Source: a gamma proteobacterium symbiont of Ctena orbiculata (GTDB lineage Bacteria > Pseudomonadota > Gammaproteobacteria > Chromatiales > Chromatiaceae). From it: a stretch of DNA of 33,083 nt. A model generated the notes under the pieces. It ran no database searches, was not told the origin of the DNA, and saw nothing but the letters and a program-made list of their open reading frames with translations. Shown here piece by piece: positions 2,625 to 31,529 of the stretch (position 1 is the first letter of the stretch; every line of letters begins with the position of its first letter). Where the stretch lies: positions 1-33,083 of the forward strand of contig QBVC01000041.1 of NCBI GenBank assembly GCA_003058495.1. The letters are read 5' to 3'. The translations under genes and the position numbers were made by a program.

Positions 2625-2680
2625 CCTCGCTTGTCAAAGCGACGTGAATCCCGCTGGGATCCTATTTTGGAGGCGATGTG

Positions 2681-4766: not shown

Positions 4767-5184
4767 ACTGCTCTTTTATGAAAAACCCGGATGCGTGGGA
4801 AACCTGAAGCAGCAGTCGCTGCTGCGCAGCCAGGGTGTTGTATTTGTCATCCGTGATCTGCTCAGCGAACCCTGGTCGGCCGAACGGCTGCGCCTCTATT
4901 TTGCCGACAAACCGGTGGCGGAGTGGTTCAACACCACGGCGCCCGCGGTAAAGTCGGGGGATCTCCCCATCGATGATCTGAGCGAGGCGGAGGCCCTGGC
5001 GATGATGGTCAGCAATCCGATCCTCATCCGTCGGCCCCTGCTCGAGCTGGGGGAGCTGAGGCAGTCGGGGTTTGTTCCCGGCGTGGTTCTGCAGGCGCTG
5101 GGCGTGGAACTGGATCCATCGGAAAAACTGCAGGAGTGTCCGATGCGGGAGGAAGGGGCGATCCCATGCGAGGGACCGGGGTGA
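4759..5184 (+). CDS. nifO: NifO, ArsC-like nitrogenase-associated protein
   Basis: A 141-residue protein of the ArsC/Spx thioredoxin-like fold, matching the nitrogenase-associated NifO group. The N-terminus LLFYEKPGCVGNLKQQSLL has the CxxN-type active-site loop with one cysteine (Cys12) where ArsC has its catalytic cysteine. The later RRPLLELGE segment corresponds to the conserved I.RP.ie of the family. In Azotobacter NifO influences molybdenum allocation between nitrogenase and nitrate reductase; the same is likely but unproven here. It overlaps the preceding 72-aa gene by 8 bases and the following flavodiiron gene by about 19 bases. Confidence 0.85.
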   Translation: MAELLFYEKPGCVGNLKQQSLLRSQGVVFVIRDLLSEPWSAERLRLYFADKPVAEWFNTTAPAVKSGDLPIDDLSEAEALAMMVSNPILIRRPLLELGELRQSGFVPGVVLQALGVELDPSEKLQECPMREEGAIPCEGPG

Positions 5185-7770: not shown

Positions 7771-8711
7771 TGTTGGTCACGCCCAATCAATCAGCACAGT
7801 CCACTAAATCGCTTTCACTAGGGCAGCGGGCGGTCGGTGCCTATGTAGGACTCGCGGTGGGTGACGCCCTGGGCGCCACGACCGAGTTTCTCACCCCCAG
7901 GGAGATCCGGGAGAAGCATGGCGTCCATGACAGGATTCTGGGGGGCGGCTGGCTGCGCCTGAAGGCCGGTCAGGTCACCGACGACACGGAGATGAGCCTG
8001 GCGCTGGGTGAGTCCATACTCGCCCGTCGGGGGGTCGAGGCGGCTGCGGTCGCCGAGGCCTTCAGCGAATGGATGCGCGGCAAGCCGATCGACATCGGCA
8101 ATACCGTGAGGCGGGGGATCGTTCACTACCGCACCACGGGCGAGAGCGCGGTGGCCATGAACGAGTTCGATGCCGGCAACGGCGCCTGCATGAGATCCCT
8201 GCCCATTGCCCTCTTTTACTGCGATGCATCCCATGAAGAACGAATGCTCGCCTCGCGCGCCCAATCCCACACCACACACAACAACCCCCTGGCCGATGCC
8301 GGTACCGAGACTATGGTGGAGATGGTTGTCTCAGCCATGAGAGGCCTGGACAAATCGATGCTGGAGACGATGGCGCTGTCGCTGGTCTCCCGGTTTCCTC
8401 TCTATCGCTTCGATAAACGGCGCATGGAGAATCCCAGCGGTTACATCGTCGAGACCCTGCGTGCGGTGTTTCAGGCGTTCTTTTCCAATTACAGCTATCA
8501 GGAGACCCTCATCGACGTGGTCAACCGGGGAGGGGACGCGGATACCACCGGGGCTATTGCCGGTATGCTCGCGGGGGCCTACTATGGTGAAGAGGGCATA
8601 CCCCATCACTGGCGCGAGAGTTTGAACACCAAGGCAATGCTGGCATGCCGGGACCAGGCGCTCAGCCTGCTGGCCCAGGGCAGACAGAAATACACGACTC
8701 AGGATCGATGA
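7770..8711 (+). CDS. draG: DraG, dinitrogenase reductase-activating glycohydrolase
   Basis: A 313-residue ADP-ribosylglycohydrolase that removes ADP-ribose from NifH Arg101 and so restores activity. Dimanganese ligands are seen in TDDTEM (residues 70-75) near the N-terminus and in RGGDADTTGAIAGMLAGAYYG near the C-terminus. GNTVRRG in the middle is also typical. The GTG start at 7770 shares a base with the nifQ stop; a TTG follows directly. Placing draG inside the nifB operon, about 20 kb from draT, differs from the classical draTG pair of Rhodospirillum and Azospirillum. Its stop overlaps the next ATG (ATGA). Confidence 0.93.
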   Translation: MLVTPNQSAQSTKSLSLGQRAVGAYVGLAVGDALGATTEFLTPREIREKHGVHDRILGGGWLRLKAGQVTDDTEMSLALGESILARRGVEAAAVAEAFSEWMRGKPIDIGNTVRRGIVHYRTTGESAVAMNEFDAGNGACMRSLPIALFYCDASHEERMLASRAQSHTTHNNPLADAGTETMVEMVVSAMRGLDKSMLETMALSLVSRFPLYRFDKRRMENPSGYIVETLRAVFQAFFSNYSYQETLIDVVNRGGDADTTGAIAGMLAGAYYGEEGIPHHWRESLNTKAMLACRDQALSLLAQGRQKYTTQDR

Positions 8712-9142: not shown

Positions 9143-9320
9143 CCGGTTCAGGCTGTATGAGCACGATTGATTGGTTCAAGCTGAATCCCGCAGGCATTCA
9201 AAGCCTAGGGTGCGGCTTGCCGCAGCGCGATCCTTGGCTATGGCATTGTTTAATATAGGATTGGTTTTTCCTACATCCTGCATGGATTTAAGCAGCCGGA
9301 GCTTATGCTATGTTGGGAAA

Positions 9321-10775
9321 ATGAAACTCTCCAACAGCTATGCCCATCTCGGTGAGATCTTCTTTGAAAGCATCCTGCCGGATCCGGTAAATGATCCCAA
9401 GTTGTTTCTTTGGAACAGCGAGTTGGCGGAGGAGCTGCAGATTTCAGAACGACTGGAGTTGCCGCCGGAGGAGCTGGCGGAGTTATTCTCCGGCAACAGG
9501 CTGCTGCCGGGTTCGGAGCCTATCGCCCTGGCCTATGCCGGCCATCAGTTCGGCCAATTCGTGCCCCAGCTTGGCGATGGCCGCGCCCATCTCATCGGTG
9601 AGATCGTCGACCGCTCCGGTGAAAGAAGAGACATCCAGCTGAAGGGATCGGGTCAGACCGCTTTTTCCCGCAGCGGCGACGGGCGCTATGCCCTCGGACC
9701 CGCGATCAGGGAGTACATCATGGGCGAGGCCATGCATGCCCTGGGCATTGCGACAACCCGCAGCCTGGCGCTGACCACCACGGGCGAGGCGGTCTATCGC
9801 GAAACTGCCCAACCCGGTGCGGTACTGACCCGCATCGCATCGAGCCACCTGCGTGTGGGCACCTTCGAGTATTTCGCCGCCAGACAGAATCGCCGGGCAC
9901 TCGAACAGCTCTGCGATTTCGCCATCAACCGTCACTATCCCGAACTGGAACAGGGTGGCGACGAACGCTTCCTGCAGCTGTTCGACAAAGTCATGCAACG
10001 CCAGATCGACCTGGTTGTCGAGTGGCTCCGGGTGGGATTCATTCATGGCGTCATGAACACGGACAATACGGCCATATCCGGGGAGACCATCGACTTTGGC
10101 CCCTGCGCCATGATGGGAAGCTACAGCCCAAAGACGGTCTTCAGCTCGATTGATCGAGACGGACGCTACGCCTTCGGCAATCAACCCGCCATCGTACAGT
10201 GGAATATGGCACGTTTTGCCGAGACCCTTCTGCCCCTGATTGACAGCAATGAAGAACAGGCCATCGAAACCCTGGGTGCGCGTCTTGAGAACTTTTCGTC
10301 GCTGTTCAAACAACGCTACCTGCGGATGATGGCAGGTAAACTTGGACTGTCCAGGTTGACGTCAGCGGATGAAGCCCTGATCCTTGCCCTGTTGGATAGG
10401 CTCGAACAGAAACGACTCGATTACACCACAAGCTTCGATCGCCTGACCCGGTCGCTGTCGTCCCAGTCGGTTGCACAGCAATCGATCGACGAATTGGCAG
10501 ATTGGTATACAGATTGGCGTCAACGCCTGGCGAGCCAGGAAGAGGATGCGAAAACGATACAATCGCGGATGCGACATGCCAACCCAGTCGTGATTCCCAG
10601 AAACTACCACATGGAACAGGTCATCGGGGAATGTCTGGAGAGCGGCGATTCCAGTGCGGCAGACAGCTTCCTCGATGTCCTAAGGTCTCCCTATCACGCA
10701 ACCAGCAATACCCTGCAGTATCAGCTTGTACCGGATGGTGCCGATGTCGGTTATCAGACGTTCTGTGGCACCTGA
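9321..10775 (+). CDS. selO: SelO, protein AMPylase pseudokinase
   Basis: A 484-residue member of the SelO/YdiU (UPF0061) family, which transfers AMP from ATP to protein side chains and has been linked to redox stress responses. Typical segments are YAGHQFGQFVPQLGDGRAHLIGE, IQLKGSGQTAFSRSGDGRYAL (glycine-rich nucleotide region), HGVMNTDNTAISGETIDFGPCAMM (metal-binding DFGPCA) and the C-terminal QTFCGT, whose Cys is conserved. ATG 9321 begins the conserved LSNSYAHLGE sequence; the open frame upstream to 9171 looks non-coding. It stands alone, 178 bases after the nifB operon, and converges with the large TIR gene. Confidence 0.93.
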   Translation: MKLSNSYAHLGEIFFESILPDPVNDPKLFLWNSELAEELQISERLELPPEELAELFSGNRLLPGSEPIALAYAGHQFGQFVPQLGDGRAHLIGEIVDRSGERRDIQLKGSGQTAFSRSGDGRYALGPAIREYIMGEAMHALGIATTRSLALTTTGEAVYRETAQPGAVLTRIASSHLRVGTFEYFAARQNRRALEQLCDFAINRHYPELEQGGDERFLQLFDKVMQRQIDLVVEWLRVGFIHGVMNTDNTAISGETIDFGPCAMMGSYSPKTVFSSIDRDGRYAFGNQPAIVQWNMARFAETLLPLIDSNEEQAIETLGARLENFSSLFKQRYLRMMAGKLGLSRLTSADEALILALLDRLEQKRLDYTTSFDRLTRSLSSQSVAQQSIDELADWYTDWRQRLASQEEDAKTIQSRMRHANPVVIPRNYHMEQVIGECLESGDSSAADSFLDVLRSPYHATSNTLQYQLVPDGADVGYQTFCGT

Positions 10776-10882: not shown

Positions 10883-13800
10883 TCAATGAGTTGCCAGACA
10901 AAGAAAATGCACATAACCCGATTGATCGCCAACAGCGATATATTTACCGTTTGGCGTTACACCGATAGCCGTGATTTGATGGTCGAGTGTCATTGCAGCG
11001 ATGAAAGAGGATCTGTTCAAGTCATACGCCATCAATGTGTCATGATAGACAGAGTAGGCATAGTCACCGTTAGGTGATATCGCCACGGTATCGACTTTTC
11101 CCACATTGCCATTGAAACACATCCGCTCACGGCCGCTGTCCAGCTCCCAAACTTTGATGGTGTCATCCCTTCCGGCGGTAATTGCATACTCTCCATCCGG
11201 TGTGACTGCAATATCCAGAATCGCACCCTTGCAAGGCTCGTTTCTGACTAATTTCGAACTTTCATCCAGGGCGCACACTATACATGATCCGAACAGGGAG
11301 CCAAGTATGACTCGCCTTTCATCCGCATCGTAAGTCATCAAGGTACATTCGAAATCGCCTATCTCTTTCAGCATGGTATGTCCTGTATTCACATCCCATA
11401 CGCATACTATTCCGTTTGCGCAGAAAACCACTTGGGAGCCGTCGCGGGATATTACGATCTGGGCATTGTGATTGATCGGTTTGTCAATGATATCGACTGT
11501 CGGCGTGACTTCGAGTTCATCTAAAAGCTCTTCGAGCAGTGCATCGCCGACCTTTAGGGCGGAAAGAGCTCTTTTGTTGTCTTTGGATACCAATGCCCTG
11601 ATCCATCTCCCGCTTGCCAAATCCCAGACACGTATTGTCTTGTCCCTCGATATGGATACACCGCGGGAGCCATCTGCAGAAAACGCGAGGCCGCGAATGT
11701 CCCTGGTATGGCCTTTCAACACATGGCTTGGTGATAGTTCGGAAAGATTCCATATCCTCAGAGTATGGTCAGCGGATCCTGTGACCGCACGCGATCCATC
11801 CGGTGTGATTCGCAGTACCCGGATCCAGCCGCCTTGACCGCTGAGAGAGCCAATACGATCAGGAACAATATCGCAGCCGGGTTCGGCAGTCTGATCTATT
11901 GTTGTGCTATTCGATTGCATTCTCCAAACAACAAGATCGTTGTCTTGGGAGCTGGAGATTGCATAGTCGCCATTTGGAGAAATCGACAAGTGCGACACGG
12001 CTTCCAAATGTGCTTGCCGTGTTTGCCGGAGGGTCGCCGTTTCTATATCCCAGTGACGAATGGACCTGTCCGTGGATCCGGATATGGTTCTTCCGCTGGA
12101 TGCAGCAATAGCAAGGGATTTCACATAACCAGAGTGGCCTTCCAGTATCCTTAATGTCTCAAAGGTTTCAAGCCGCCATACCCTTAGTGTTCTGTCTCTC
12201 GAACCGGAGATGACATTTTTACCGTCAGCTGTGAATGCGACCGTCTCGACACTGCCCGTGTGACCTTGCAAGGATCCCAGGCACACCCCGGTTGCAATAC
12301 TCCAGACGCGAAGCGTGTGATCGTCGGCGCCGGAAACCAGCAGATCTCCATCAGGGGCAATCGCCAGGGTTCTGACTACCCCGGTATGACCCTCCAGACG
12401 CTTCGACTCCTGGTTGTCTGTCAGGTTCAGGAGCATGATCGACCAATCTCCGACTCCGAAGGCCAAACAACGGTTGTCGGGGGTAATCGCCACGGAATTA
12501 AGCTGGTGATACAAACCCTTGAAGAGCCGTTCAGATTGGCCGGTGTTGAGATTCCAGCGTCGAACAGTGCCGTCTTCCGAGACTGATGCGGCATATTTCC
12601 CGTCTGTAGCGACGGCGACGCCTTGAACCGCGAGTGTATGGCCACTGAGCACAAGCAAGAGGCGGCCACTCTCAAGGTCCCAGAGGCGTATGGTCCGATC
12701 ATCGGAAGCGGAAAGGATTCGCATTTCGTCTGGGGTGATAGTGACAGCATACACGACACCTTGATGCCCCTCATAGGTGCGGATTACCCTATTGTTTTCC
12801 AGGTCCCACAGGCGCAGAGTGTAGTCTTCCGAACCTGATACGGCCCGCCGCCCATCCGCTAAAATGGCCAACGCCTCCACTGAGCCAATATGGCCCTTCA
12901 TGATGCCAGTCAATGCGCCGCCGGGATGAGTCAATGACGCATCCGCCAACAGTAGACCCGGGACTGGACGGTTTGCATCAGCTTGATCGAGCAGTTCATC
13001 GACTATCAATGACCTGCCCCGATCGAGACGTCCCATTAGTTGAATGTAGATTTGCCCAGGGTCATTCGAGAGAGCATAGGATGCGAGCTGCAATGCATCT
13101 CTGACCATTCTCGTTTCATCACTGTTCTTCAAGCGTTCGAAGTCTTTTAGGATTGTTTGTATTTCAACGTTTTCCAGCCTGGCCTTGAGCCAGTCAAAAT
13201 CCAAAAGAAGTTCAAGCAGCTTTTGATTGTCATCCGCCTGCTGCAGATGCCAGCCTATCCATTTCCACGCATAATGATTGGGCAGTAGGCGGGATGCCTG
13301 CCACCACTGATCCACCAGACGGGCGTGGATGGTGGCCGTTTCAGTAAGAAGTGACTTAAGATAGGATTGAAGTACCCTGTGAATTCGAATACCGCCTGTT
13401 TTGAGGTCAAAATCGAGTAGTGCAGCCCCATCCAATCGCTGAATCAGCTCTTCAGTATCAAATTCATCCAAGCCCCAAAGGTTGGCTACCGATTCAAGCG
13501 GGATGAAGGTGTCTCTAGGAAATATTGCGAGTTCCGCGCAACGCCTTTGGTCCGCTTCAGCGAAGAGCTCGAGGCTGACGGATACTGTGCTGGCCACGGT
13601 GTCGTGCCTGTTGTCCGGATTTGTGCGATCGAAGGCTGTAACTCCCCGCTTGTCCATTGCTCGATTGAGATATGACACCGCGCCATCTAGAGAATCGCCG
13701 CGTTCAACCCTTTCCCATAAATGAGAAGCGGCCAATTTCAGCAACAGCGGCCATTCACCGAATCTACGTGCAAGAGATCGCAGTTTCGGTAAATTCTCCG

Positions 13801-14782
13801 GCATGTATTCGACCCTTGAGGAGAGCATCTTTACCGCCTGATCATCGGTCATCTTATCGACGATGATTCGGCTGCTGGTCGTGTCGGTGAGGACGCTCAA
13901 CTGTCGCGTCGTAACAAGTCGAGAGCATTGATGTCCACCCCTCAGAAAAGGTTTAAGATGGTTGGCATGCCAAACATCATCGATAACCAATAAACAGTTT
14001 TTTTGATCGAGGCGGGATGAAACCTGAATGGATGCATCATCAATATCTATGAATGGCAGGCGTTCGCCTGTAAGCGCGGCATAGAGTTTCGTCAATGCGC
14101 CTTGAATATCAGGTTGTTCACCGAGGCTTACCCATAATATTCCATCATCATAAGCGTTGATAATCTGTTCACTATGACACAGGCTGCAGGCCAAGGTCGT
14201 TTTGCCAAATCCTCCTGGACCCTGGAGGGCAGTTGTTGAAAACTGGGGATTGTTATGTGTTTCATCAAGCAGGTAAGAGAGGACAGTTTCGAATTCATCC
14301 TGGCGTTCGACATAGTGATGGGGTAAGTCCGGCGCCATGAAGGGGACTCGATTGTCTTTTCCCGGACTCTTGAGAAAGTTGATGAGGGTATCCCATTCAT
14401 GTGCCGGGTCATAGAAGTGAGTTTTTCTCATCCAACTTGGCAGCAGATTGAAATCCAGCTCTGCAGCCGAGATGCCCAGTACAGGGCAAACGCGAACGCC
14501 TTGCTGCCTTGCATAGCGCCACTCTTTCACAGCCACTTCCGACTGAAATGCAGCCGGCGTAATCACCATTAAGAGGATCTCGACCTTTTCGAGGGCATCC
14601 GTTATCTGTTTCCACCAACCGATCCCTGCCTGCATTTTCGAACGGTCTTGCCAAAAGGTGATATCTGGATGTTCCTTTTCAATCCTTTCACGAAGTGATG
14701 CAGCAATATCGGCGCCATCCGAGTGTGCATAAGAAACGAATACCCGAGGGTGAAGACCGAAATTATGCGGATTGTCTGACAT
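10883..14782 (-). CDS. TIR / NB-ARC / WD40 STAND-type sensor protein
   Basis: A 1299-residue protein. Residues about 11-130 form a TIR domain (RVFVSYAHSDG start; candidate catalytic Glu87 in FQSEVAVKEW), which in bacteria usually hydrolyses NAD+. Residues about 160-450 form an NB-ARC/STAND ATPase: P-loop GPGGFGKTT (188-196), Walker B CLLVIDDVW (263-271), SRLVTTR (287-293) and GEWPLLL in place of GLPLAL. A winged-helix and helical linker follow. From about residue 615 to the end there are some 14-15 WD40 repeats (GH...V....D......SGS.D.T.R.WD), enough for two seven-bladed propellers; the repeats are diverged from each other. The architecture fits antiphage TIR-STAND or APAF1-like signalling proteins: WD40 senses, NB-ARC oligomerises, TIR destroys NAD+. 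It is a single gene without a partner. Confidence 0.88.
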   Translation of the reverse strand: MSDNPHNFGLHPRVFVSYAHSDGADIAASLRERIEKEHPDITFWQDRSKMQAGIGWWKQITDALEKVEILLMVITPAAFQSEVAVKEWRYARQQGVRVCPVLGISAAELDFNLLPSWMRKTHFYDPAHEWDTLINFLKSPGKDNRVPFMAPDLPHHYVERQDEFETVLSYLLDETHNNPQFSTTALQGPGGFGKTTLACSLCHSEQIINAYDDGILWVSLGEQPDIQGALTKLYAALTGERLPFIDIDDASIQVSSRLDQKNCLLVIDDVWHANHLKPFLRGGHQCSRLVTTRQLSVLTDTTSSRIIVDKMTDDQAVKMLSSRVEYMPENLPKLRSLARRFGEWPLLLKLAASHLWERVERGDSLDGAVSYLNRAMDKRGVTAFDRTNPDNRHDTVASTVSVSLELFAEADQRRCAELAIFPRDTFIPLESVANLWGLDEFDTEELIQRLDGAALLDFDLKTGGIRIHRVLQSYLKSLLTETATIHARLVDQWWQASRLLPNHYAWKWIGWHLQQADDNQKLLELLLDFDWLKARLENVEIQTILKDFERLKNSDETRMVRDALQLASYALSNDPGQIYIQLMGRLDRGRSLIVDELLDQADANRPVPGLLLADASLTHPGGALTGIMKGHIGSVEALAILADGRRAVSGSEDYTLRLWDLENNRVIRTYEGHQGVVYAVTITPDEMRILSASDDRTIRLWDLESGRLLLVLSGHTLAVQGVAVATDGKYAASVSEDGTVRRWNLNTGQSERLFKGLYHQLNSVAITPDNRCLAFGVGDWSIMLLNLTDNQESKRLEGHTGVVRTLAIAPDGDLLVSGADDHTLRVWSIATGVCLGSLQGHTGSVETVAFTADGKNVISGSRDRTLRVWRLETFETLRILEGHSGYVKSLAIAASSGRTISGSTDRSIRHWDIETATLRQTRQAHLEAVSHLSISPNGDYAISSSQDNDLVVWRMQSNSTTIDQTAEPGCDIVPDRIGSLSGQGGWIRVLRITPDGSRAVTGSADHTLRIWNLSELSPSHVLKGHTRDIRGLAFSADGSRGVSISRDKTIRVWDLASGRWIRALVSKDNKRALSALKVGDALLEELLDELEVTPTVDIIDKPINHNAQIVISRDGSQVVFCANGIVCVWDVNTGHTMLKEIGDFECTLMTYDADERRVILGSLFGSCIVCALDESSKLVRNEPCKGAILDIAVTPDGEYAITAGRDDTIKVWELDSGRERMCFNGNVGKVDTVAISPNGDYAYSVYHDTLMAYDLNRSSFIAAMTLDHQITAIGVTPNGKYIAVGDQSGYVHFLCLATH

Positions 14783-19631: not shown

Positions 19632-22600
19632 ATGATGTCCGCACTCACGCTGAAACATATCTTGACCGCTGAAGTCGAGACGGTTTCACCGGACACTTCT
19701 GTCGACCAAGTCCTATCGACAATGGAACTGCGCCATATCAGTTGTCTGGTGGCAGTCGACCGGGAGCGTCGTCCCATAGGGATATTCACCGAGCAGGATG
19801 CAATCAGGCTGATGGCGGAAAAGCAGCCTATCCATAATCTCACCATGGGCGAGGTGATGAGCGGATCACCCCTGACCGCCGAAGAGAGTATGGATTTCCA
19901 TGATGCCTACCGCGTCATGACCGAAAAATCCTTTCGGCATCTACTGGTGATCGCCAAGGATGGCAAACTGATCGGCCTGGTCAGCGAGGCCGATTTCCTC
20001 CACCACATGGGTATGGAGTACCTGGTCGAGCTGAAGACCGTGGAGTCGGCCATGACGCGCCACGTGGTGACCCTGGAACCCGCCGAGACATTGGTCAGGG
20101 CGGTGCGGCTCATGTCTCAACGCCATATCAGCTGTGTGATCATCTGTACGCATGGAAAACCGCTAGGTGTACTGACCGAGCGGGATATCGTCCGCCTTGC
20201 CCAGACACTGGATCAAGCCGACGAGGTAAGCGTTGAACAAGTGATGCATACCCCGGTGATCTCCTGCCATATGGACATGCCGATGCAGGAGGCCGCGCGG
20301 ATTATGGAGAGAGAACGCATCCGCCGTCTCGCCGTCACCCGAACCGACGGAACCCTGTGCGGTATCATCACCCGGCATGACATCGTCAAGGCCCTCCAGG
20401 GCCGCTATGTCGAATATCTGCACGAGACCCTGCTGCGTACCAACCGGGATCTTGAGAACACCCTGAGCAATCTGCGTGAAGCCGAGCAGAAGGTCTTTCT
20501 GTTGAACCTGATCGAACAGATCGACGATGCCATCTATATCATCGAAGCGGAGAGCGGAAGTATCATCGAGGTCAACGAAAAGGCCTGCGATATGCTCGGC
20601 TACACCAGGGATCAGATCTGCAGCATGATGGTATGGGATATAGACACCGCTATCGAAAACGAGAGCCAATGGAGACGGACCCAGGCAAACCTGAAGATTC
20701 AAGGCAGTACGACCAAACCGGCCCTCCACCGCAGAGACGACGGCAGCTACATTCCGGTGGAGGTAAGCTCGAAATATCTGCGCCACGAGGAGAATGACTA
20801 CTCCCTTGCGGTTGCCAGGGACCTGACCCATGTAAAGCGCCAGGAGTCAAAGCTGCTGTTGTTGAGGGAGGCACTGGAGGCGACCCCCAATGCGATTGCG
20901 ATTGCCGATATCAACGGATCGGTGCTGTGGGCCAATCCGGCCTTCAATCAGCTTACGGGATATACCCAGGAGGAGGTCGGTGGGCTCACTTTTGACGAAA
21001 TAATCGACACCAATCAGCAGAATATATCGAGTTTGAGCGACCTTTGGCATGCTATCGTGGCCAAACACAGTTGGCGGGGTGAGATCACCAATATCAGAAA
21101 AGACGGCGGTCACTACCAAGCTGCATTCACCATGACCCCGGTTGTGGACGACAGCGAGGAGGTGTCCCACTACATAGCGGTAATCGAGGATATCACCGAA
21201 CGCCATAAACAGATGACCCGACTGCGTCTCTACGCCACCCTGTTCGAGAATACCCGCGAGGGTGTGATGGTGACCGATGGGGACGGGATTATCCGCATGG
21301 TGAATCAGGCGTTCTCCAAATTGACAGGCTATGATGAATCGGAAGCGCTTGGCCGGCTGCCCAATATCCTGAAATCGGGTAAACACGAGCTGAGCTTTTA
21401 TCAGCAGCTTTGGGGCGAGCTTCTCTCCGACGGCCACTGGCAGGGTGAGATCTGGAATCGACGCAAGAACGGCGAGGTCTACCCCGAGTTACTGAGTATC
21501 AGCAGCGTCAATGATGATCAGGATAAATTGAAATACTATGTGGGCGTATTCTCCGACATCAGCCAATTAAAGCAGACCGAGGCCAAACTGGATTACCTGG
21601 CCCACCACGATCCATTGACCCGACTGGCCAATCGCCGCCTCCTCATGTCGCAACTGGAATATGGCCTCAAGGCGGCGCATCGCAAACAGGAGCGGGTGGC
21701 GCTGCTGGTCATGGATCTGGATCGGTTCAAGGATATCAATGACAGCTATGGACACCTGATTGGCGACGAGCTGCTGCAACTGGTCGCCGGCCGACTCAAT
21801 CACCGCTTGCGCGAAAGCGATCTGGTGACCCGCCTGGGCGGGGATGAATTCGCGGTATTGATGCAGGGGCTGGGTCATCCGGAGGATGCGGCGCTGCTTG
21901 CCAGCGATATCATCCAAATCTTGAATGAGCCGTGCCAGCTCCAGGACGGGCTCGAGCTCTCGGTGGGCACGAGTATCGGCATCAGCCTCTACCCCGAGCA
22001 TGGCACGACAGCGGAAACGTTGCTGCAGCATGCGGACTCTGCACTCTATCAGGCGAAGAAGGAGGGCCGCGGGCGCTTCTGTTATTTCTCCGAAGAGATG
22101 ACCCAGGCCGCCCGCCAGCGCATCGAGATCCACAACAACCTGAGACACGCCCTCGCGGAACAGAGGCTCACTGTCTATTACCAGCCCCAGATCGAATTCG
22201 AGAGTAATCGCATCGTCGGCGCCGAGGCGCTGTTGCGCTGGCGCGATCCCGAACTGGGAGAGATCTCTCCCGATCTGTTCATCCCGGTCGCGGAAGAGAC
22301 CGGCTTGATCAGCCGCATGGGCGAGTGGGTCATGCGCGAAGTCTGCAATCAGGGAAAGGCGTGGATGGAGCAGGGCCGTCCACCGCTGTCGCTGGCGGTC
22401 AATCTATCCGTCCACCAGTTGCGCCAGGGAGATTTCGTGGAAAAGATCAGGCAGATAGTCGAAGAGTCGAACTATCCCGCCGGTCAACTCTCATTCGAGG
22501 TGACCGAGAGCGCCTTGATGGAGCGGGAGACAGAGGCGCTTGGCGTGTTGAACCAGCTGCGCAGGATGGGGCTGCATCTTTCCATCGATGACTTCGGTAC

Positions 22601-22946
22601 CGGTTACTCCTCCCTTGCCCATCTGCAACGCATGCCCCTGGACGAGCTCAAGATCGATAAGACGTTTATTGACGAAATCCCGCATAAACGGGCAGACATG
22701 GAGATCACTTCCACGATCATCGCGATGGCGAAAAATCTTGGCTTGATCGTACTCGCGGAAGGCGTCGAGACCGATGCGCAATACAAGTTCCTGCAGCAAC
22801 AGGGTTGCGATTTTTTCCAGGGATTCATCATCAGCCCGCCACTCAGTGCAGAAGCCTTCACGAGTCTCATGGATAACGAGCCTACGCGGTTGAGCAGAGG
22901 GGATTTCAGCCGCTGGCAGCCCCATGAAGCGTCAGGCCCGAAATAG
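19632..22946 (+). CDS. Four-CBS, three-PAS, GGDEF-EAL c-di-GMP signalling protein
   Basis: A 1104-residue cytoplasmic protein with no membrane segment. In order: four CBS motifs (two Bateman pairs, about residues 1-255), a short coiled coil (about 255-285), PAS1 (about 290-400), PAS2 (about 405-525), PAS3 (about 530-650), GGDEF (about 660-815) and EAL (about 835-1085). GGDEF at residue 736 is intact (RLGGDEFAVL). The EAL domain keeps AEALLRW near 863 and DDFGTGYSSL...KIDKTFI, so both cyclase and phosphodiesterase activity are possible. CBS pairs normally bind adenosine nucleotides, so the protein may link cell energy state, plus a PAS ligand or redox signal, to c-di-GMP. A transporter gene follows after 18 bases. 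Confidence 0.93.
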   Translation: MMSALTLKHILTAEVETVSPDTSVDQVLSTMELRHISCLVAVDRERRPIGIFTEQDAIRLMAEKQPIHNLTMGEVMSGSPLTAEESMDFHDAYRVMTEKSFRHLLVIAKDGKLIGLVSEADFLHHMGMEYLVELKTVESAMTRHVVTLEPAETLVRAVRLMSQRHISCVIICTHGKPLGVLTERDIVRLAQTLDQADEVSVEQVMHTPVISCHMDMPMQEAARIMERERIRRLAVTRTDGTLCGIITRHDIVKALQGRYVEYLHETLLRTNRDLENTLSNLREAEQKVFLLNLIEQIDDAIYIIEAESGSIIEVNEKACDMLGYTRDQICSMMVWDIDTAIENESQWRRTQANLKIQGSTTKPALHRRDDGSYIPVEVSSKYLRHEENDYSLAVARDLTHVKRQESKLLLLREALEATPNAIAIADINGSVLWANPAFNQLTGYTQEEVGGLTFDEIIDTNQQNISSLSDLWHAIVAKHSWRGEITNIRKDGGHYQAAFTMTPVVDDSEEVSHYIAVIEDITERHKQMTRLRLYATLFENTREGVMVTDGDGIIRMVNQAFSKLTGYDESEALGRLPNILKSGKHELSFYQQLWGELLSDGHWQGEIWNRRKNGEVYPELLSISSVNDDQDKLKYYVGVFSDISQLKQTEAKLDYLAHHDPLTRLANRRLLMSQLEYGLKAAHRKQERVALLVMDLDRFKDINDSYGHLIGDELLQLVAGRLNHRLRESDLVTRLGGDEFAVLMQGLGHPEDAALLASDIIQILNEPCQLQDGLELSVGTSIGISLYPEHGTTAETLLQHADSALYQAKKEGRGRFCYFSEEMTQAARQRIEIHNNLRHALAEQRLTVYYQPQIEFESNRIVGAEALLRWRDPELGEISPDLFIPVAEETGLISRMGEWVMREVCNQGKAWMEQGRPPLSLAVNLSVHQLRQGDFVEKIRQIVEESNYPAGQLSFEVTESALMERETEALGVLNQLRRMGLHLSIDDFGTGYSSLAHLQRMPLDELKIDKTFIDEIPHKRADMEITSTIIAMAKNLGLIVLAEGVETDAQYKFLQQQGCDFFQGFIISPPLSAEAFTSLMDNEPTRLSRGDFSRWQPHEASGPK

Positions 22947-24891: not shown

Positions 24892-25470
24892 ATGGACACG
24901 CGTACATTCAGGCATCCCGCCGCAGTTCTTCTGGTAACACTCTTCACCGGATTTTCGACACCACTCTACGCCATCGACTACTCGTTTGTAGAGGGCCGCT
25001 TTCTTCTCGATGCGGAATTCGACGATGTCGATGATGATGGTGACGGTTTTCGCTTCGCCGGCTCGTTTCAGGTCACCAACGAGATCTTTGCCTTCGCAAA
25101 GTACGATGACGTGGAACTCGATGACAGTGACGTGGATTTTTCGCTGTTGAGAATCGGCGCCGGCTATATTCATCCCCTCGACGCCAGCTGGGATGCCAAT
25201 GTATCGCTCGCCTATGCAGATGCCGAGGCCGATGGTCCCGGCGGCGAAGAGGATGAAAGCGGATTTGAACTCAGCGGCGGCGTTCGCGGCATGGTCAAGC
25301 CGCAGATAGAGGTGCGAGCGTCATTGAACTATTTGGATATCGAAGACAGCGACACCTATTTCACGCTGGGTGGCGACTACTACATTATGCCGAACATCTC
25401 TGCCGGCATCGAGCTCGACATGGGTGGCGACTATGAAACCGTGTCAATCGGAGCTAAATTCTATTTCTAA
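24892..25470 (+). CDS. Small outer-membrane beta-barrel protein
   Basis: A 192-residue secreted protein. The first about 27 residues are a signal peptide ending in PLYA. The rest alternates polar and hydrophobic residues in about eight strands and ends in KFYF, the C-terminal aromatic expected for outer-membrane barrels. Turns are strongly acidic (DDVDDDGDGF, DDVELDDSDVDF, GGEEDESG), which might bind cations. It resembles Ail/OmpA-like porin-family proteins in size, but I do not recognise a named family. ATG 24892 is chosen (GGAG about 11 bases upstream); an ATG at 24865 would add nine residues before the signal. Confidence 0.72.
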   Translation: MDTRTFRHPAAVLLVTLFTGFSTPLYAIDYSFVEGRFLLDAEFDDVDDDGDGFRFAGSFQVTNEIFAFAKYDDVELDDSDVDFSLLRIGAGYIHPLDASWDANVSLAYADAEADGPGGEEDESGFELSGGVRGMVKPQIEVRASLNYLDIEDSDTYFTLGGDYYIMPNISAGIELDMGGDYETVSIGAKFYF

Positions 25471-25498
25471 GCAACCGCTGATTAATTCTCTTTTCGTC

Positions 25499-25518
25499 AT
25501 CCCGGCGTATGCCGGGAT
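25499..25518. repeat. REP-like palindrome (CCCGGC...GCCGGG)
   Basis: ATCCCGGC and GCCGGGAT pair around GTAT, within a longer context CGTCATCCCGG...GGGATCCAG. Units of this form are dispersed repeats in many proteobacteria. It lies between convergent genes and may also act as a bidirectional terminator, although no T-run follows. Confidence 0.6.
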
Positions 25519-25567
25519 CCAGGAAAACGGGGTGTGTTGTTGATCCGTGTTGGAGCTGGGTCGATAA

Positions 25568-25957
25568 CTACTTTTTCAAATGTGAAGCAAGCGCGCTGTC
25601 CATTGTTTTCGCATGCAGATCAAACCATAGGGGCAACTGCTGGGTTATATAGGATCTTGCTATCAGGATAGAGCCTGAAGCAACCCGCTGCGCAAACCGG
25701 TCCAGTTCGCCCAGGATACGCTGATGCTCATCCGTATGCTCGCGGATTGCGGGAAAGTCTGATGTTTCCATCCATCGGTCTTCCTGTGCGAAGTGTTCCC
25801 TGGTATGAGTTACCAGATCTGCAAAGAGCGTTATGAACTCCTGTCTACCGGCCTCTCCCAATCGGTTTACCAAGGCTACGAAAGCGCGATGGGTGTTATC
25901 CATATCGTCAACACCCAGCAGATAACGTTGTTCGAAGTTTTCAATCAGCGCCCCCAT
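25568..25957 (-). CDS. Bacteriohemerythrin, O2-binding diiron protein
   Basis: A 129-residue four-helix protein with the complete hemerythrin ligand set: His23, His55 and Glu59 (HFAQE), His74 and His78 (HTDEH), His115 and Asp120 (HAKTMD). Such proteins bind O2 reversibly at a diiron site and can buffer, deliver or sense oxygen. It is the last gene of a three-gene minus-strand operon, only 3 bases after the four-cysteine gene. A sigma-54/NifA-type promoter precedes the first gene of the operon, so hemerythrin expression is likely switched on with nitrogenase, where it could lower free O2. Confidence 0.92.
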   Translation of the reverse strand: MGALIENFEQRYLLGVDDMDNTHRAFVALVNRLGEAGRQEFITLFADLVTHTREHFAQEDRWMETSDFPAIREHTDEHQRILGELDRFAQRVASGSILIARSYITQQLPLWFDLHAKTMDSALASHLKK

Positions 25958-25960
25958 GGT

Positions 25961-26191
25961 TCAACCATCCTGCTCCAGCCTTTGATAGTCGATCATCTTG
26001 GCGGTCTTGCGGGCGACATATTGGGCGAAGTCATCGACGTTTTCGTAGTCATAGGTGATGGCGAGCGTCGAAAGTTTCTGCATCAGCTCCCGCAGTTCGG
26101 CGATCTCTTTCAGCGTGCGGCCGCAGGTAAGACAGGTTTCGCCGTCATCCCGGCATGCACTCTTGCCTTGGCAGGGTGTGAAGCTGGCCAT
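25961..26191 (-). CDS. Small four-cysteine protein, DUF1289-like
   Basis: A 76-residue protein. The N-terminal half has Cys7, Cys13, Cys20 and Cys23 in the pattern PCQGKSACRDDGETCLTCGRTLKEI, which resembles DUF1289 (C...C....G.C.GC.RT..EI) and suggests a zinc or iron-sulfur site. The C-terminal half (TYDYENVDDFAQYVARKTAKMI) is helical and differs from the usual DUF1289 W/W ending. It lies 24 bases after the SIR2-like gene and 3 before hemerythrin, so the three are co-transcribed. The function is unknown. Confidence 0.68.
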   Translation of the reverse strand: MASFTPCQGKSACRDDGETCLTCGRTLKEIAELRELMQKLSTLAITYDYENVDDFAQYVARKTAKMIDYQRLEQDG

Positions 26192-26215
26192 GGTGAATCT
26201 GTGCTTCCCGTATCT

Positions 26216-27118
26216 TCAGCAGCCTACATCTTCCACAGAGGCAATCGCATCGCTGACCGGCGCCTGCGGTGGGCTGTCGGTTTCATTGAGGAGATCCTCG
26301 ATGTCGGCTTCGATAATCTCAATATTCATCTTTTTGCAAAAGCGGCGCTCCTTGTCATTGGGGTTTGGAATCAACGCCCAAGCCGCCGGACCACCGCCCG
26401 CCGCATAGATGATATCAGACAGCACCATGCGTTCCGTATCCCGATTCATCCTGAGGCCGAGAAAAAGGTATTGTTTACCCTTACGATAGGATTTCAGGAA
26501 CGTCGGTATGGCGAATCCTCCCATCAATTCAGTGATGTAATCGACGTAGTCGGCATCGGAGGCGATATAGGTGGAGTCGGGAAGGGGGCTGCCCATGGGT
26601 TTGAACAAGATAGGTAGCGCGGGGTCGACTTCCGCCTGATCGATCTCTTTCTCCGAGTATTTTTCGCCGTCGTAATGATGAATACGGAATCGGTAGTCGG
26701 TGCCTCCGACTCTGGCAATACCGCGAATCAAGGTATGAGCGGTAGCGCTGTAACTCTCCTGCAGCTGGGTGTCGCGGTTGATGTCGATGACATAGGGCGG
26801 TTTTATCCCGGCCAGCCAGGCGTGCAGGGGCGACTGGGTCCACCTCTGCTCACCGTAGAGGTTGTCAAGAAAGCGGTTGACCGCGCTTCTGCCGCGTTTC
26901 AACTCAACATCCATGGCCGCGCGGGCAAACTCATACATCAGTCTGGGCGCCATCGGTTTGCCGTTGTTCATGGCGTGAATGAGGCTGTCACTGTCGGCGG
27001 GAATGGGATCGTCTGTGTCAAAATGGGACGATCCATTGAGTGCGCCTGCACCGAGATAGGGCACGATATCCCCCGCTTCGACACCCGCTTTGAGCGTCTG
27101 GAAATTGATTTCCGCCAT
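26216..27118 (-). CDS. SIR2-like NAD-fold protein in a nif-type operon
   Basis: A 300-residue protein of the SIR2_2-like fold. The nucleotide-binding loop is VPYLGAGAL (residues 19-27). YVIDINRD (109-116) takes the place of the usual TTNxD. LFKPMGSPLPDSTYIASDADYVDYI (171-195) matches the K-H-G...dY block, but Met175 stands where the catalytic His is expected. YLFLGLRMNRDTERMVL (217-233) fits the G.S..D..... motif. The missing His suggests NAD binding without classical deacylation or NAD hydrolysis. ATG 27118 has GGAGG 7 bases upstream. It is the first gene of the operon with the four-cysteine protein and hemerythrin, behind a sigma-54 promoter. No defence partner gene is present. Confidence 0.75.
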   Translation of the reverse strand: MAEINFQTLKAGVEAGDIVPYLGAGALNGSSHFDTDDPIPADSDSLIHAMNNGKPMAPRLMYEFARAAMDVELKRGRSAVNRFLDNLYGEQRWTQSPLHAWLAGIKPPYVIDINRDTQLQESYSATAHTLIRGIARVGGTDYRFRIHHYDGEKYSEKEIDQAEVDPALPILFKPMGSPLPDSTYIASDADYVDYITELMGGFAIPTFLKSYRKGKQYLFLGLRMNRDTERMVLSDIIYAAGGGPAAWALIPNPNDKERRFCKKMNIEIIEADIEDLLNETDSPPQAPVSDAIASVEDVGC

Positions 27119-27155
27119 TGTTTGCCTCCATAAAGCCAGATCGATATAGATCATT

Positions 27156-27171
27156 AGCAAGAGGCAGGCCA
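27156..27171 (-). promoter_or_regulatory. Sigma-54 promoter of the SIR2-like/hemerythrin operon
   Basis: On the minus strand TGGCCTGCCTCTTGCT has GG and GC with exactly ten bases between, and the TTGCT -12 box is intact; the -24 box is TGGCC where the consensus is TGGCAC. The start point would be near 27145, giving a leader of about 27 bases that contains the GGAGG site of the SIR2-like gene. Confidence 0.6.
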
Positions 27172-27234
27172 ACCATACAAAACCAGGATAAACAGGATGT
27201 TATGCTGGCAAGTCTATGAGCTGCCCAGTGTGAT

Positions 27235-27250
27235 TGTAGGCTTTGTGACA
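27235..27250. promoter_or_regulatory. NifA-type activator site (SIR2-like operon)
   Basis: TGTAGGCTTTGTGACA is an exact TGT-N10-ACA. It lies about 65-80 bases upstream of the minus-strand -24 element, and between that operon and the divergent gene pair at 27408. Confidence 0.6.
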
Positions 27251-27360
27251 GAGCAGGCCGCAAGATGTGTTACTGAGAACCGGCATGCCGGCGAAGTGTG
27301 GTGCCCGGATATCCACTGCAAGATAAATTTGGCATGAATCCTGTTACCCGGATATCAACC

Positions 27361-27380
27361 GCGCAAACCATTGTTTGCGC
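27361..27380 (+). promoter_or_regulatory. Perfect hairpin before the DUF3144 gene
   Basis: GCGCAAAC (27361-27368) and GTTTGCGC (27373-27380) form an 8-bp stem with loop CATT, 27 bases before ATG 27408. There is no T-run after it. It may be an operator or a 5' leader hairpin. Confidence 0.45.
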
Positions 27381-27407
27381 TCTAGTGGAGACGTGGAGTA
27401 TCGAACC

Positions 27408-27656
27408 ATGCAGGAATCGGATTTTCGAGAAGTCGCTGATGAATTCATCCACCTTGCAAATGAGCTGAGTGAGGAATGGGCGACACCCTTTCTCAGTGCG
27501 GCCTTTATGTATGCGGCGGCGTGGTATAATACCCACCAATTTCACGCATCGGATGGGGCCGCGGAGAACCAGCCAAAGGCTGTCGATTACTATTGTGATC
27601 AATATCGTAAGATGTTGATGGAGTGTATGCATGATTTTTCGGGAACAAACAGATGA
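27408..27656 (+). CDS. DUF3144 family protein
   Basis: An 82-residue protein matching DUF3144: ESDFREVADEFIHLANEL followed by FLSAAFMYAAAWYNTHQF. It is helical, with no signal or membrane segment, and ends in a region with two cysteines (YYCDQY, MECMHDF). ATG 27408 is chosen for the GGAG 9 bases upstream. Its stop overlaps the next start (ATGA at 27653), so the two are coupled. The role is unknown; its place beside draT and nifH suggests a link to nitrogen fixation. Confidence 0.75.
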   Translation: MQESDFREVADEFIHLANELSEEWATPFLSAAFMYAAAWYNTHQFHASDGAAENQPKAVDYYCDQYRKMLMECMHDFSGTNR

Positions 27657-28015
27657 ACCTTCAGACCGCGATTGAAGCTCCCCATCCCGCTGCACTTTGG
27701 GCTCAAACAGCACCCCTCGATCCGTTGCAGATCGATTGCGTCACTACGGTCATGCTGAAGATCCTCGATAACAAATGCAAGATGCTCCCGGAAGAGCAGA
27801 TGGCGATGATGGCTATCTATAGCGTGGTCAAGGAGAAAAAGGGGCAACTCTTCGACAGCACTATCCACACCCGGATCGACGAGGCGCTGCAGGTCGGCGG
27901 CAGTCGATCACTCGAGCGTATCCACGAATTGCGCCTGTATGCCGAAGCGACAGTACCCAAACCGGTAATGAAGCATTTCAAAAGCTATCTGCGCGAATCT
28001 CTCTATGGCATTTGA
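27653..28015 (+). CDS. 120-aa unknown helical protein beside draT
   Basis: A 120-residue, mostly helical soluble protein (LDPLQIDCVTTVMLKILDNK; LPEEQMAMMAIYSVVKEKKG; SRSLERIHELRLYAEATVPKPVMKHFKSYL) with two cysteines. It starts inside the stop of the DUF3144 gene (ATGA), so the pair is translationally coupled. It ends 12 bases before the convergent end of draT. I do not recognise a family. Position between a nif-type regulatory region and draT makes a role in nitrogenase control plausible, but that is inference. Confidence 0.65.
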   Translation: MNLQTAIEAPHPAALWAQTAPLDPLQIDCVTTVMLKILDNKCKMLPEEQMAMMAIYSVVKEKKGQLFDSTIHTRIDEALQVGGSRSLERIHELRLYAEATVPKPVMKHFKSYLRESLYGI

Positions 28016-28027
28016 GTCATTGTCCGA

Positions 28028-28873
28028 TCATAGAATGTCAACCCTGACCCGATAGACGCCCCCGATCACCATGAATTCATTTTCGCCTTTCAGTCTACCG
28101 GGCAGCAGACCGGGAAAGTAGAGCAGTTTTTCCAGGGGAACCTCCGCTTGCAGGATATAGTCCCCGAACTCATCCGCCCGTTCACGCTCATCGGTGAATG
28201 AGTTGAGGTTGTTCAACAACAGGATGTACTCATGTTTGCTCGACTGCTGCAGTATCTCATGCTCTTTGATCTGATTGATGCCGCGATAGAGGGCGATGTG
28301 GGTCTGCTTTGAGTAGTGTTGTCTGACCTCGTGTTGACAAAAGGTATAGAGGAGGTCGAGCTGAGACTCGAGGCCGTTCGTGTTGTAGAGTCCTGCGGCG
28401 CGATCGCTGAGGTAGATCAGGTAGTCCGGCGTCGAATAGTCACCCAGCGGTCCACGATGATTTCGCGGCAGCAGACCGAATCGGGACTCGACCCAGCTTT
28501 TCAATACAGCGGCCTCCTTGCCGTCAGGATCGAACATCCATCCCCGTAATATCCTCAAATAGTCCGCCTTGTCCCGCTTATAGCGGCTCTGCTTCTCATC
28601 GAAACCGGCTTCATCCAGATGGTCGAGGAGAAAGCCTGAACGCATATAGTCCGAGAAGTGAATTGCCCGCTCATCTCTCTTCGCGAGGCCCTGCAGGGTT
28701 GAAAAGAGCGCAGCGTGAAGCTCTCGTACCCCATCGAGAAAGAGGGCCACCGGATGCTGCTGAAAGCTAAGGCTGCCGAGGACCGCCGCGGGCAGGTTGC
28801 AGTGGTTGATCGGCAGGCGGGCATTGGCGGGCAGGGAGGTCGCCGGCGGCGCCGATTGTTTGTTTTCATCCAT
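28028..28873 (-). CDS. draT: DraT, dinitrogenase reductase ADP-ribosyltransferase
   Basis: A 281-residue enzyme that transfers ADP-ribose from NAD+ to Arg101 of NifH and switches nitrogenase off when ammonium appears or energy falls. Family features: LPINHCNLPAAVLGSLSFQQHP near the N-terminus, ALYRGINQ (the NAD-binding Arg), LLLNNLNSFT, and GENEFMVIGGVYRV near the C-terminus, with the likely catalytic Glu. ATG 28873 is used; a TTG at 28939 would add 22 residues. There is no strong ribosome binding site at either. It is divergent from nifH, and a NifA-type site overlaps its first codons. The partner draG is about 20 kb away in the nifB operon. Confidence 0.93.
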   Translation of the reverse strand: MDENKQSAPPATSLPANARLPINHCNLPAAVLGSLSFQQHPVALFLDGVRELHAALFSTLQGLAKRDERAIHFSDYMRSGFLLDHLDEAGFDEKQSRYKRDKADYLRILRGWMFDPDGKEAAVLKSWVESRFGLLPRNHRGPLGDYSTPDYLIYLSDRAAGLYNTNGLESQLDLLYTFCQHEVRQHYSKQTHIALYRGINQIKEHEILQQSSKHEYILLLNNLNSFTDERERADEFGDYILQAEVPLEKLLYFPGLLPGRLKGENEFMVIGGVYRVRVDIL

Positions 28874-28876
28874 ACA
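28861..28876. promoter_or_regulatory. NifA upstream activator site of nifH
   Basis: TGTTTTCATCCATACA is an exact TGT-N10-ACA, about 100-114 bases upstream of the nifH -24 element. It covers the start codon and first four codons of draT on the other strand. A one-mismatch copy (TGT-N10-ACC) lies at 28890-28905. Confidence 0.7.
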
Positions 28877-28973
28877 TTTGCTGGGTGATTGTAGTGAACC
28901 CGACCTCGATCGGTCTTCTGGTTTAGTAAATATAAACAAATAAAATCAAATAGTTAATCTGTTGATTGCGGTT

Positions 28974-28989
28974 TGGCACGGCGCTTGCT
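28974..28989 (+). promoter_or_regulatory. Sigma-54 promoter of nifHDK
   Basis: TGGCACGGCGCTTGCT is a consensus -24/-12 promoter: GG (28975-28976) and GC (28987-28988) with ten bases between. Transcription would start near 29000, about 60 bases before nifH. Confidence 0.92.
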
Positions 28990-29010
28990 GCAGAGTGGAT
29001 GTCCAAGTGA

Positions 29011-29937
<927 letters not shown>

Positions 29938-30007: not shown

Positions 30008-30050
30008 CCGTATGTCCGCGGATTGGCGGCGCGGCAGGAGAAAGACTATG
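30008..30050 (+). promoter_or_regulatory. nifD leader element, repeated before nifK
   Basis: A 43-base leader ending at the nifD ATG, including AGGAG. It is nearly the same as 31715-31757 before nifK. Within it CCGC (30016-30019) pairs with GCGG (30026-30029) around the loop GGATTG. Confidence 0.65.
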
Positions 30051-31529
30051 TCTTCTATGACACGTGAAGAGACCGAAGCCCTTATCCAGGAGGTGCTCGA
30101 GGTCTACCCTGAAAAAGCCCAGAAGGACCGCGCAAAACACCTCACGGTCAACGACCACGAGGTGGAGCAGTCCAAGAAGTGCATCACTTCCAACCGCAAA
30201 TCGCTGCCGGGGGTGATGACCATCCGCGGTTGCGCCTACGCCGGTTCCAAGGGTGTGGTCTGGGGTCCGATCAAGGACATGATCCACATCTCCCACGGCC
30301 CCGTCGGTTGCGGCCAGTACTCCCGCGCCGGCCGCCGTAACTACTATGTGGGCACCACCGGCGTCAACACATTCGGCACCATGAACTTCACCTCCGACTT
30401 CCAGGAGAAGGATATCGTCTTCGGCGGCGACAAGAAGCTGGCCAAGATCATGGAGGAGATCGAGACCCTGTTCCCGCTGAACAAGGGCATCACCGTGCAG
30501 TCCGAGTGCCCCATCGGTCTGATTGGCGACGACATCGAAGCCGTTTCCAAGAAGACCGCGAAAGAGATCGAAAAGCCGGTGGTTCCCGTCCGTTGCGAGG
30601 GCTTTCGCGGTGTCTCCCAGTCCCTGGGTCACCACATCGCCAACGACGCCGTGCGCGACTGGGTGCTGCACAACCGGGACAACGACAACAGCTTCGAGAG
30701 CACCGACTACGACGTCACCATCATCGGTGACTACAACATCGGTGGCGACGCCTGGTCGTCGCGCACCCTGCTCGAGGAGATGGGGCTGCGGGTCATCGCC
30801 CAGTGGTCCGGCGACGGCACCCTGGCCGAGATGGAGAACACCCCCAAGGCCAAGCTCAATCTGCTCCACTGCTACCGTTCCATGAACTACATCTCCCGTC
30901 ACATGGAAGAGAAGTACGGCATTCCGTGGATGGAGTACAACTTCTTCGGTCCCACCAAGATCGAGGAGTCCCTGCGCAAGATCGCCGCCTTCTTCGACGA
31001 GACCATCCAGGCCAACGCGGAGAAGGTGATCGAGAAGTACAAGGCCGAGTACGAGGCGGTGATCGCCAAGTACCGTCCCCGTCTCGAGGGCAAGAGAGTG
31101 ATGCTCTATGTCGGCGGCCTGCGTCCGCGCCACATCATCGGCGCCTACGAGGATCTGGGCATGGAAGTGGTCGGCACCGGTTACGAGTTCGCCCACAACG
31201 ACGACTACGACCGCACCATCAAGGAGATGGGCAACGCAACCCTGATCTACGACGACGTCACCGGCTACGAGTTCGAGGAATTCGTCAAGAAGGTCAAACC
31301 CGACCTGATCGGTTCCGGCATCAAGGAGAAGTACATCTTCCAGAAGATGGGCATCCCCTTCCGCCAGATGCACTCCTGGGATTACTCCGGTCCCTATCAC
31401 GGCTACGACGGCTTTGCCATCTTCGCCCGGGATATGGACATGACCCTGAACAATCCCTGCTGGAGCAAGATCCAGGCGCCCTGGCTGAAGGGCGAGGAAG
31501 AGGCCGAGGCCGCCGCGGCCGGCGCTTGA
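30048..31529 (+). CDS. nifD: NifD, nitrogenase MoFe protein alpha chain
   Basis: A 493-residue alpha subunit carrying half the P-cluster and the FeMo-cofactor. Counting from ATG 30048, P-cluster ligands are Cys62, Cys88 and Cys154; FeMo-co ligands are Cys275 (LLHCYRS) and His442 ([15 protein letters not shown]); Gln191 and His195 near the active site are also present. These numbers equal those of Azotobacter vinelandii, which shows there is no length change in the core and supports this start over ATG 30012. AGGAG lies 7 bases upstream. The alanine-rich tail ([11 protein letters not shown]) is specific to this lineage. Confidence 0.98.

Follow-up and report, generated by a model that had tools for sequence, protein, structure and literature searches.

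What does a sirtuin-like gene do inside a nitrogen fixation cluster? The question comes from a 33,083-nt stretch of DNA, contig QBVC01000041.1 from a gammaproteobacterial symbiont of the clam Ctena orbiculata, which we call the window. By Pfam and NCBI/TIGRFAM profiles, the window is a nif cluster with nifB, draG, draT, nifH, nifD, and the start of nifK. In it are 3 minus-strand genes encoding a SIR2-like protein, a small protein with 4 cysteines (4-Cys), and a hemerythrin, with a gap of 24 bases between the first 2 and of 3 bases between the second and third (Table 1). This is a real, well-conserved nif accessory operon, and its main gene has probably been described before, as pnfA. The reading we prefer, at a probability of roughly 0.55, is that the SIR2-like gene is orthologous to pnfA, with a product that acts as a noncatalytic, sirtuin-fold support factor for nitrogenase and has an oxygen-binding partner. 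The new part is the structural identity, a predicted SIR2 fold without the catalytic His, and the three-gene form.

The distribution of the SIR2-like gene was followed in 369 class genomes and 398 phylum genomes, which are overlapping samples with G000 and G013 in both. In the class sample the window protein matches 29 of the 369 genomes, namely 19 with a type A relative (at least 60% identity, window included), nine with a type B relative (23-29% identity), and G164, which was set aside as an ordinary SIR2_2 protein with intact motifs and not a member of the nif family. The members of the family are in nif-bearing genomes in 28 cases out of 28, 26 with nifD, a gene found in 31 of the 369, and the other two with nifH and nifB. 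A profile made from both types matched 17 of the 398 phylum genomes, full-length with E ≤1e-85, after which came only two fragments (about 1e-11) in genomes already counted. These 17 members are likewise all in genomes with nif genes, 15 with nifD and two with nifB only. Within the taxonomic family of the window, a type A copy is present in 14/14 nifD-positive genomes and in 0/11 nifD-negative genomes.

To see the surroundings of the gene we use the best 80 of 517 type A relatives found in a scan of genome contigs. These best 80 pieces have nifH in 29 and draT in 23, and where at least 5 kb of upstream sequence is available (62 of the 80), nifH is seen in 24 and not in 38. Many relatives have draT immediately upstream of the SIR2-like gene, in the same orientation. 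In Allochromatium warmingii L149, the one examined of the 38 showing no nifH, the SIR2-like gene abuts convergent draG, a 2Fe-2S ferredoxin gene, and nifB. Type B genes are found in the order nifB-fdxN-nifZ-nifT-SIR2 in Rhizobium etli, on its symbiotic plasmid, adjoining nifT in Bradyrhizobium, and inside a nif cluster on a plasmid in Methylococcus.

The promoter candidate upstream of the SIR2-like gene is a -24/-12 site of the sigma-54 type, TGGCCTGCCTCTTGCT, which has the exact GG-N10-GC spacing and two mismatches to TGGCACGN4TTGCW, and is accompanied by an exact TGT-N10-ACA. It scores 13.4 bits on a matrix with approximate weights, which is near the 99th percentile of the top scores in random 200-bp stretches of the window. 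Motif counts within the window alone give the promoter no support, since, with at most 3 mismatches allowed, 52.7 -24/-12-like matches are expected and 36 are observed, and TGT-N10-ACA occurs 8 times against 5.3 expected, neither being an excess over chance. The promoter stands above chance because it is conserved across orthologous upstream regions. A site of at least 10 bits is present in 66/79 SIR2 upstream regions, and in 64/79 it is 30-70 nt from the start; with near-copies dropped, the fractions are 59/72 and 57/72. As controls, 835 other open reading frames have such a site in 93 cases, 57 of them at 30-70 nt, and 2000 random windows have it in 125, with 22 at 30-70 nt. TGT-N10-ACA is found within 300 bp upstream in 57/78 SIR2 orthologue regions against 239/3200 random windows. 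The sigma-54-type site is some 40 nt upstream of the SIR2 start even in loci where draT comes directly before the gene, so the SIR2-like gene appears to have its own promoter and not only read-through from draT. In the same window nifH has a perfect -24/-12 site at 28974-28989. Judged on these upstream regions, a putative NifA-sigma-54-type promoter, with the -24/-12 element and the upstream activating sequence (UAS), is conserved across SIR2 orthologues.

An earlier note on this DNA, made from the letters alone, had described the 3 genes with their 2 gaps, the exact spacing of the -24/-12 element, and the exact TGT-N10-ACA, all of which we confirm, and it had called the promoter nif-type, which is borne out by the orthologues and their controls. 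Its claim of a nitrogenase-associated module agrees with the position of the operon beside draT, nifH, nifD, and the start of nifK. By its own terms the idea would fall if the genes were equally common away from nif genes; for the SIR2-like gene this is not so, as it was found in none of the sampled genomes outside the nif-bearing ones.

The known gene that fits is PST1325 of Pseudomonas stutzeri A1501, labelled a SIR2 family protein and lying next to nifH (PMC11332353), and named pnfA in 2010 (PMC2820453). The 2010 paper describes pnfA as divergent from nifH, preceded by -24/-12 and TGT-N10-ACA elements, and dependent on nifA and rpoN. It gives a first subfamily of homologues at 49-92% identity to A1501 PnfA, in diazotrophs only, and a second subfamily at 20% identity. 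At 0.5% O2, nitrogenase activity in a nonpolar pnfA mutant was down to 23% of the wild-type level; the mutant resembled the wild type under plain anaerobiosis and failed to fix nitrogen when nitrate was the electron acceptor. PnfA was not required for nifH transcription, and the paper suggests a role in electron transfer or in protection from oxygen (PMC2820453). The window protein is like PnfA in its SIR2-family assignment, its length of about 300 aa, its -24/-12 plus TGT-N10-ACA promoter, and its restriction to diazotrophs, and its 2 types recall the 2 published subfamilies at about 20%. The window family has the diazotroph-only range and has nifH linkage within a cluster bearing both promoter elements. 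Unlike PnfA, which is beside nifH, the window gene is not directly divergent from nifH but parted from it by draT, a DUF3144 gene, and a gene for a 120-aa protein, and it is followed by the 4-Cys and hemerythrin genes. We regard the SIR2-like gene as probably a pnfA orthologue, matched to PnfA by description and not by alignment. The match rests on where the gene lies, on its promoter and its restriction to diazotrophs, on PST_1325 being labelled a SIR2-family protein, and on the 2 published subfamilies at 20% identity.

Other nif operons have such a gene too. The R. capsulatus counterpart has the entry NF in a nifA1-nifA2 mutant in PMC6925177. A SIR2-like gene is inside a nif operon as Rcc03262 in R. 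capsulatus, in the rhizobial nifB-nifZ-nifT operons, and probably as ZMO1821 in Zymomonas. Rcc03262 is presumably NifA-dependent at the protein level. The rhizobial proteins belong to type B and share 24-30% identity with the window protein; unlike in the window, their genes neighbor nifT, nifZ, or nifB with no hemerythrin. A search of open-licence literature produced no paper uniting SIR2, nifH, and hemerythrin, by which absence from print is not claimed.

The next question is what kind of protein this is. The window protein scores over the curated cut-off of SIR2_2 (PF13289), and the AlphaFold2 model, with a predicted local distance difference test (pLDDT) score of 89.9, has the SIR2 fold, the closest fold matches being the anti-phage NADases ThsA, KomC, and DSR2. 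In the alignments N114 is kept and the catalytic His position is Met175. The catalytic His of the xHG motif is replaced in 81/81 type A and 9/9 type B proteins, while the catalytic Asn is present in 81/81 type A and is Trp in 9/9 type B. The GAGxS and GYS motifs are altered, the GxG loop is kept, and in type A His128 is invariant. Compared with ThsA, DSR2, and KomC, the window protein lacks the catalytic His, is a stand-alone domain, and belongs to the nif regulon instead of defense. PADLOC gives the window protein no match, and gives one type B relative a weak match to ThsA (E = 4.6e-6). No NCBIfam model covers the family, and 44 members gave one weak chance match; PHROGs returned nothing of weight, and in a viral fold library the best match was E = 0.1 to a Sir2 family protein of Marseillevirus. 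What is new here, going by sequence and model, is that a pnfA-type gene product is tied to a SIR2 fold without the catalytic His.

The window protein has a disordered tail ending in -GC (window 26216-26240). Among type A proteins (loci L097-L176), 34/81 finish in -GC following a tail that is variable and modelled with low confidence, and 38/81 finish in Cys. The -GC tail was tested for correlation with the partner genes, and none was found (p 0.83 and 0.37).

The partners were counted in the 2.5 kb downstream of the SIR2-like gene and on its strand, some loci ending at contig ends. In the best 80 of 517 type A loci, a hemerythrin gene is downstream in 38 and a 4-Cys gene in 29, with both in 18, hemerythrin only in 20, and 4-Cys only in 11, so that 49 have at least one. 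The window hemerythrin scores 44.1 bits against a cut-off of 25.3 for PF01814 and 71.4 against 51.75 for TIGR02481. It has the full ligand set H23, H55, E59, H74, H78, H115, and D120, like bacterial hemerythrins of the DcrH-Hr type, and the 7 positions are present in 36/36 full-length downstream homologues. Unlike the DcrH-Hr type, it falls in a separate nif-type group, has a -TMDSALAAHL end, and is below the NCBI bacteriohemerythrin cut-off of NF033749 (70.9 bits against 84). A profile of the nif-type hemerythrins, run on 295 newly drawn genomes of the class, gives 9/295 at 147 bits or more, the next being at 108.6. Eight of the nine are type A genomes, which is a share of the high scorers and not of all type A genomes; among these, six have the hemerythrin close downstream of SIR2, G125 has it 8 kb off on the other strand, and G284 has it elsewhere. 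In a tree of 40 nif-linked rows and 13 other rows, the labels require 2 changes, a number as low as which 0/500 shuffles gave; the 13 were picked with the nif-type profile and are the usable rows from 30 loci, the tree has several long branches, and its bootstrap is not settled. By profile score and tree the nif-type hemerythrins are a distinct group, not proved to be one clade. The genome of the window has 16 hemerythrin-domain matches in all, so that the signal lies in adjacency to SIR2 rather than in presence.

The 4-Cys protein has the pattern CX5CX6CX2C and a DUF1289-like N-terminus plus two helices. Among 23 aligned homologues Cys7, Cys13, and Cys20 are invariant and Cys23 is at least 90% conserved. 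Five relatives were scanned with DUF1289 (PF06945, cut-off 27 bits), of which four match at 16.3-24.8 bits and one has no match. The model has a pLDDT of 92.6, and its fold search returned nothing with E <1, the best being E = 5.2. The operon form, with a DUF1289-like 4-Cys gene and/or a distinct hemerythrin gene downstream of SIR2, is new as well.

Every step past regulation, linkage, and structure is conditional. NifA would drive the operon in this organism. Because a sirtuin/NADase fold is present without its catalytic His, the SIR2-like product most likely binds a nucleotide, a partner on the nitrogenase side, or both, instead of breaking NAD+. Respiration, on O2 or nitrate, may compete for electrons or admit oxidants to nitrogenase, and the SIR2-like protein would counter this by keeping the Fe protein or its electron supply going. 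Beside it the hemerythrin would buffer or sense O2, and the 4-Cys protein may be a metal-binding or redox adaptor. We favor a binding protein by which nitrogenase is supplied or protected in a respiring cell because the published phenotype, the lost catalytic His, and the hemerythrin partner fit it best.

Other explanations share parts of this evidence. An active NAD+-dependent deacetylase or NADase regulating nitrogenase or NifA has been proposed for ZMO1821 of the Zymomonas nif cluster, which is up under N2 fixation, in an organism with acetylated nitrogenase proteins (PMC8600466). The fold, the GxG loop, and Asn114 of type A would suit such an enzyme, but the loss of the catalytic-position His from every type A and type B protein counted, with the Asn gone too in type B and the GAGxS and GYS motifs altered, makes it very unlikely. 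The NAD-type fold and the draT so often directly upstream on the same strand might instead indicate an accessory of the DraT/DraG switch that binds NAD+ or ADP-ribosylated NifH and tunes Fe-protein ADP-ribosylation, to which the convergent draG of L149, the one Chromatiaceae locus examined for it, can be added. The link to draT is loose, as draT is in only 10/19 type A and 3/9 type B genomes, 4/5 nifD-positive genomes without the SIR2-like gene carry draT, and the SIR2-like gene has its own conserved promoter, so that we find this accessory role unlikely. Similarly unlikely is a maturation factor for the FeMo-cofactor or the Fe protein, unrelated to oxygen or redox, with the hemerythrin and 4-Cys genes as passengers; the type B gene orders of R. 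etli and Bradyrhizobium speak for it, and the near wild-type anaerobic activity of the P. stutzeri mutant, impaired at 0.5% O2 or with nitrate (PMC2820453), speaks against it.

Several points weigh against a PnfA-type support factor with an oxygen-binding partner. G425 and G603 of the phylum sample have the SIR2-like gene and nifB, with no nifH or nifD found. (At G603:C45 nifB is about 1 kb from the SIR2-like gene and a second contig has partial nifB and SIR2 pieces; the G425 gene is on C3.) The SIR2-like gene is missing from 5/31 nifD-positive genomes in the class sample and 26/41 in the phylum sample, and is therefore not essential to diazotrophy, and its nif linkage could partly be hitchhiking beside nifH. 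Neither partner is downstream in 31 of the best 80 of 517 type A loci, and a nif-type hemerythrin of 147 bits is at G212:C37:76563-76940 (L283), in a genome not among the nifD or SIR2 matches. The orthology rests on features other than the A1501 PnfA sequence, and PnfA is likened to UspA and ETF-alpha, not to SIR2, in PMC2820453. With Asn and invariant His128 together in type A, unusual chemistry may be conceivable. As for the earlier note, its 3 genes as one module hold for the loci with both partners and not for those with neither; the genes are not an obligate unit. Its NAD-fold protein stands as to the SIR2 fold, without the catalytic His of SIR2 enzymes and with NAD binding putative. Its statement that no such system had been described gives way to PnfA, NifA-sigma-54-dependent and needed for full nitrogenase activity in P. 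stutzeri A1501 (PMC2820453). The oxygen protection or sensing that the note proposed for the module may be right, and is in keeping with the published pnfA mutant phenotype, which depends on O2 and nitrate.

Table 1. Positions in the window of the operon, its promoter elements, and neighboring nif genes
Feature	Position	Strand	Remarks
nifB	2678-4186		
draG	7770-8711		
Hemerythrin gene, 129 aa	25568-25957	-	Pfam Hemerythrin E = 3.5e-11; TIGR02481 over cut-off
4-Cys gene, 76 aa	25961-26191	-	DUF1289 E = 3.8e-4, 20.7 bits, below cut-off 27
SIR2-like gene, 300 aa	26216-27118	-	Pfam SIR2_2 E = 4e-11, over cut-off
-24/-12 sigma-54-type promoter (putative), TGGCCTGCCTCTTGCT	27156-27171	-	37 nt before SIR2 start
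TGT-N10-ACA (UAS), TGTAGGCTTTGTGACA	27235-27250		exact match
DUF3144 protein gene (context)	27408-27656	+	between draT and operon; Pfam DUF3144 E = 9.2e-16
120-aa protein gene (context)	27653-28015	+	adjoins DUF3144 gene
draT (context)	28028-28939	-	Pfam DRAT E = 7.3e-100
nifH (context)	29062-29937	+	TIGR01287 E = 7.5e-143
nifD (context)	30012-31529	+	TIGR01282 E = 8.6e-267
nifK (context)	after nifD		start only; runs off window end

The 120-aa protein has no weighty family match in Pfam, the NCBI/TIGR profiles, or PHROGs, and is kept in several loci of the same genus. Homologues of both it and the DUF3144 protein (27408-28015) recur within that genus, and Oceanobacter L154 and L165 have a relative of the 120-aa protein, at 37%, close to hemerythrin and nif genes. 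Just 3' of the operon, at 25490-25525, there is a palindrome resembling repetitive extragenic palindromic elements around ATCCCGGC...GCCGGGAT. Close to draG and nifB are encoded a SelO-type protein adenylyltransferase (9171-10775) and a flavodiiron-like protein with ODP and flavodoxin domains (5136-6464). Elsewhere in the window are a WD40-repeat protein of 1299 aa (10883-14782) and a GGDEF/EAL/PAS/CBS protein of 1104 aa (19632-22946). The Rfam search gave no match, and over 25400-29100 the search for sigma-70 promoters and terminators gave one of each, fewer than in shuffles.

It has long been asked how nitrogenase keeps working in a cell that respires, and for symbionts of bivalve gills the question is acute. 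A published but unexplained nif gene, pnfA, is now linked to a structural class, in which the absence of the catalytic His removes the most obvious enzymatic guess. Two operon partners are named, one from an oxygen-binding family, opening the mechanism to ordinary biochemistry and genetics. A bolder picture, which we consider doubtful, is that the nif regulon of many Proteobacteria has its own pseudo-sirtuin from the anti-phage NADase branch of SIR2, recruited as a noncatalytic sensor of NAD(H) or ADP-ribose telling nitrogenase of respiration, and that in sulfur-oxidizing symbionts and purple sulfur bacteria it is complexed with its own dedicated O2-binding hemerythrin and the 4-Cys metal adaptor, perhaps via the flexible -Gly-Cys tail. 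If that were true, a pseudo-sirtuin sensor complex would let nitrogen fixation continue in an aerated clam gill. The SIR2-like protein is, in any event, a testable candidate for keeping nitrogenase at work during respiration.
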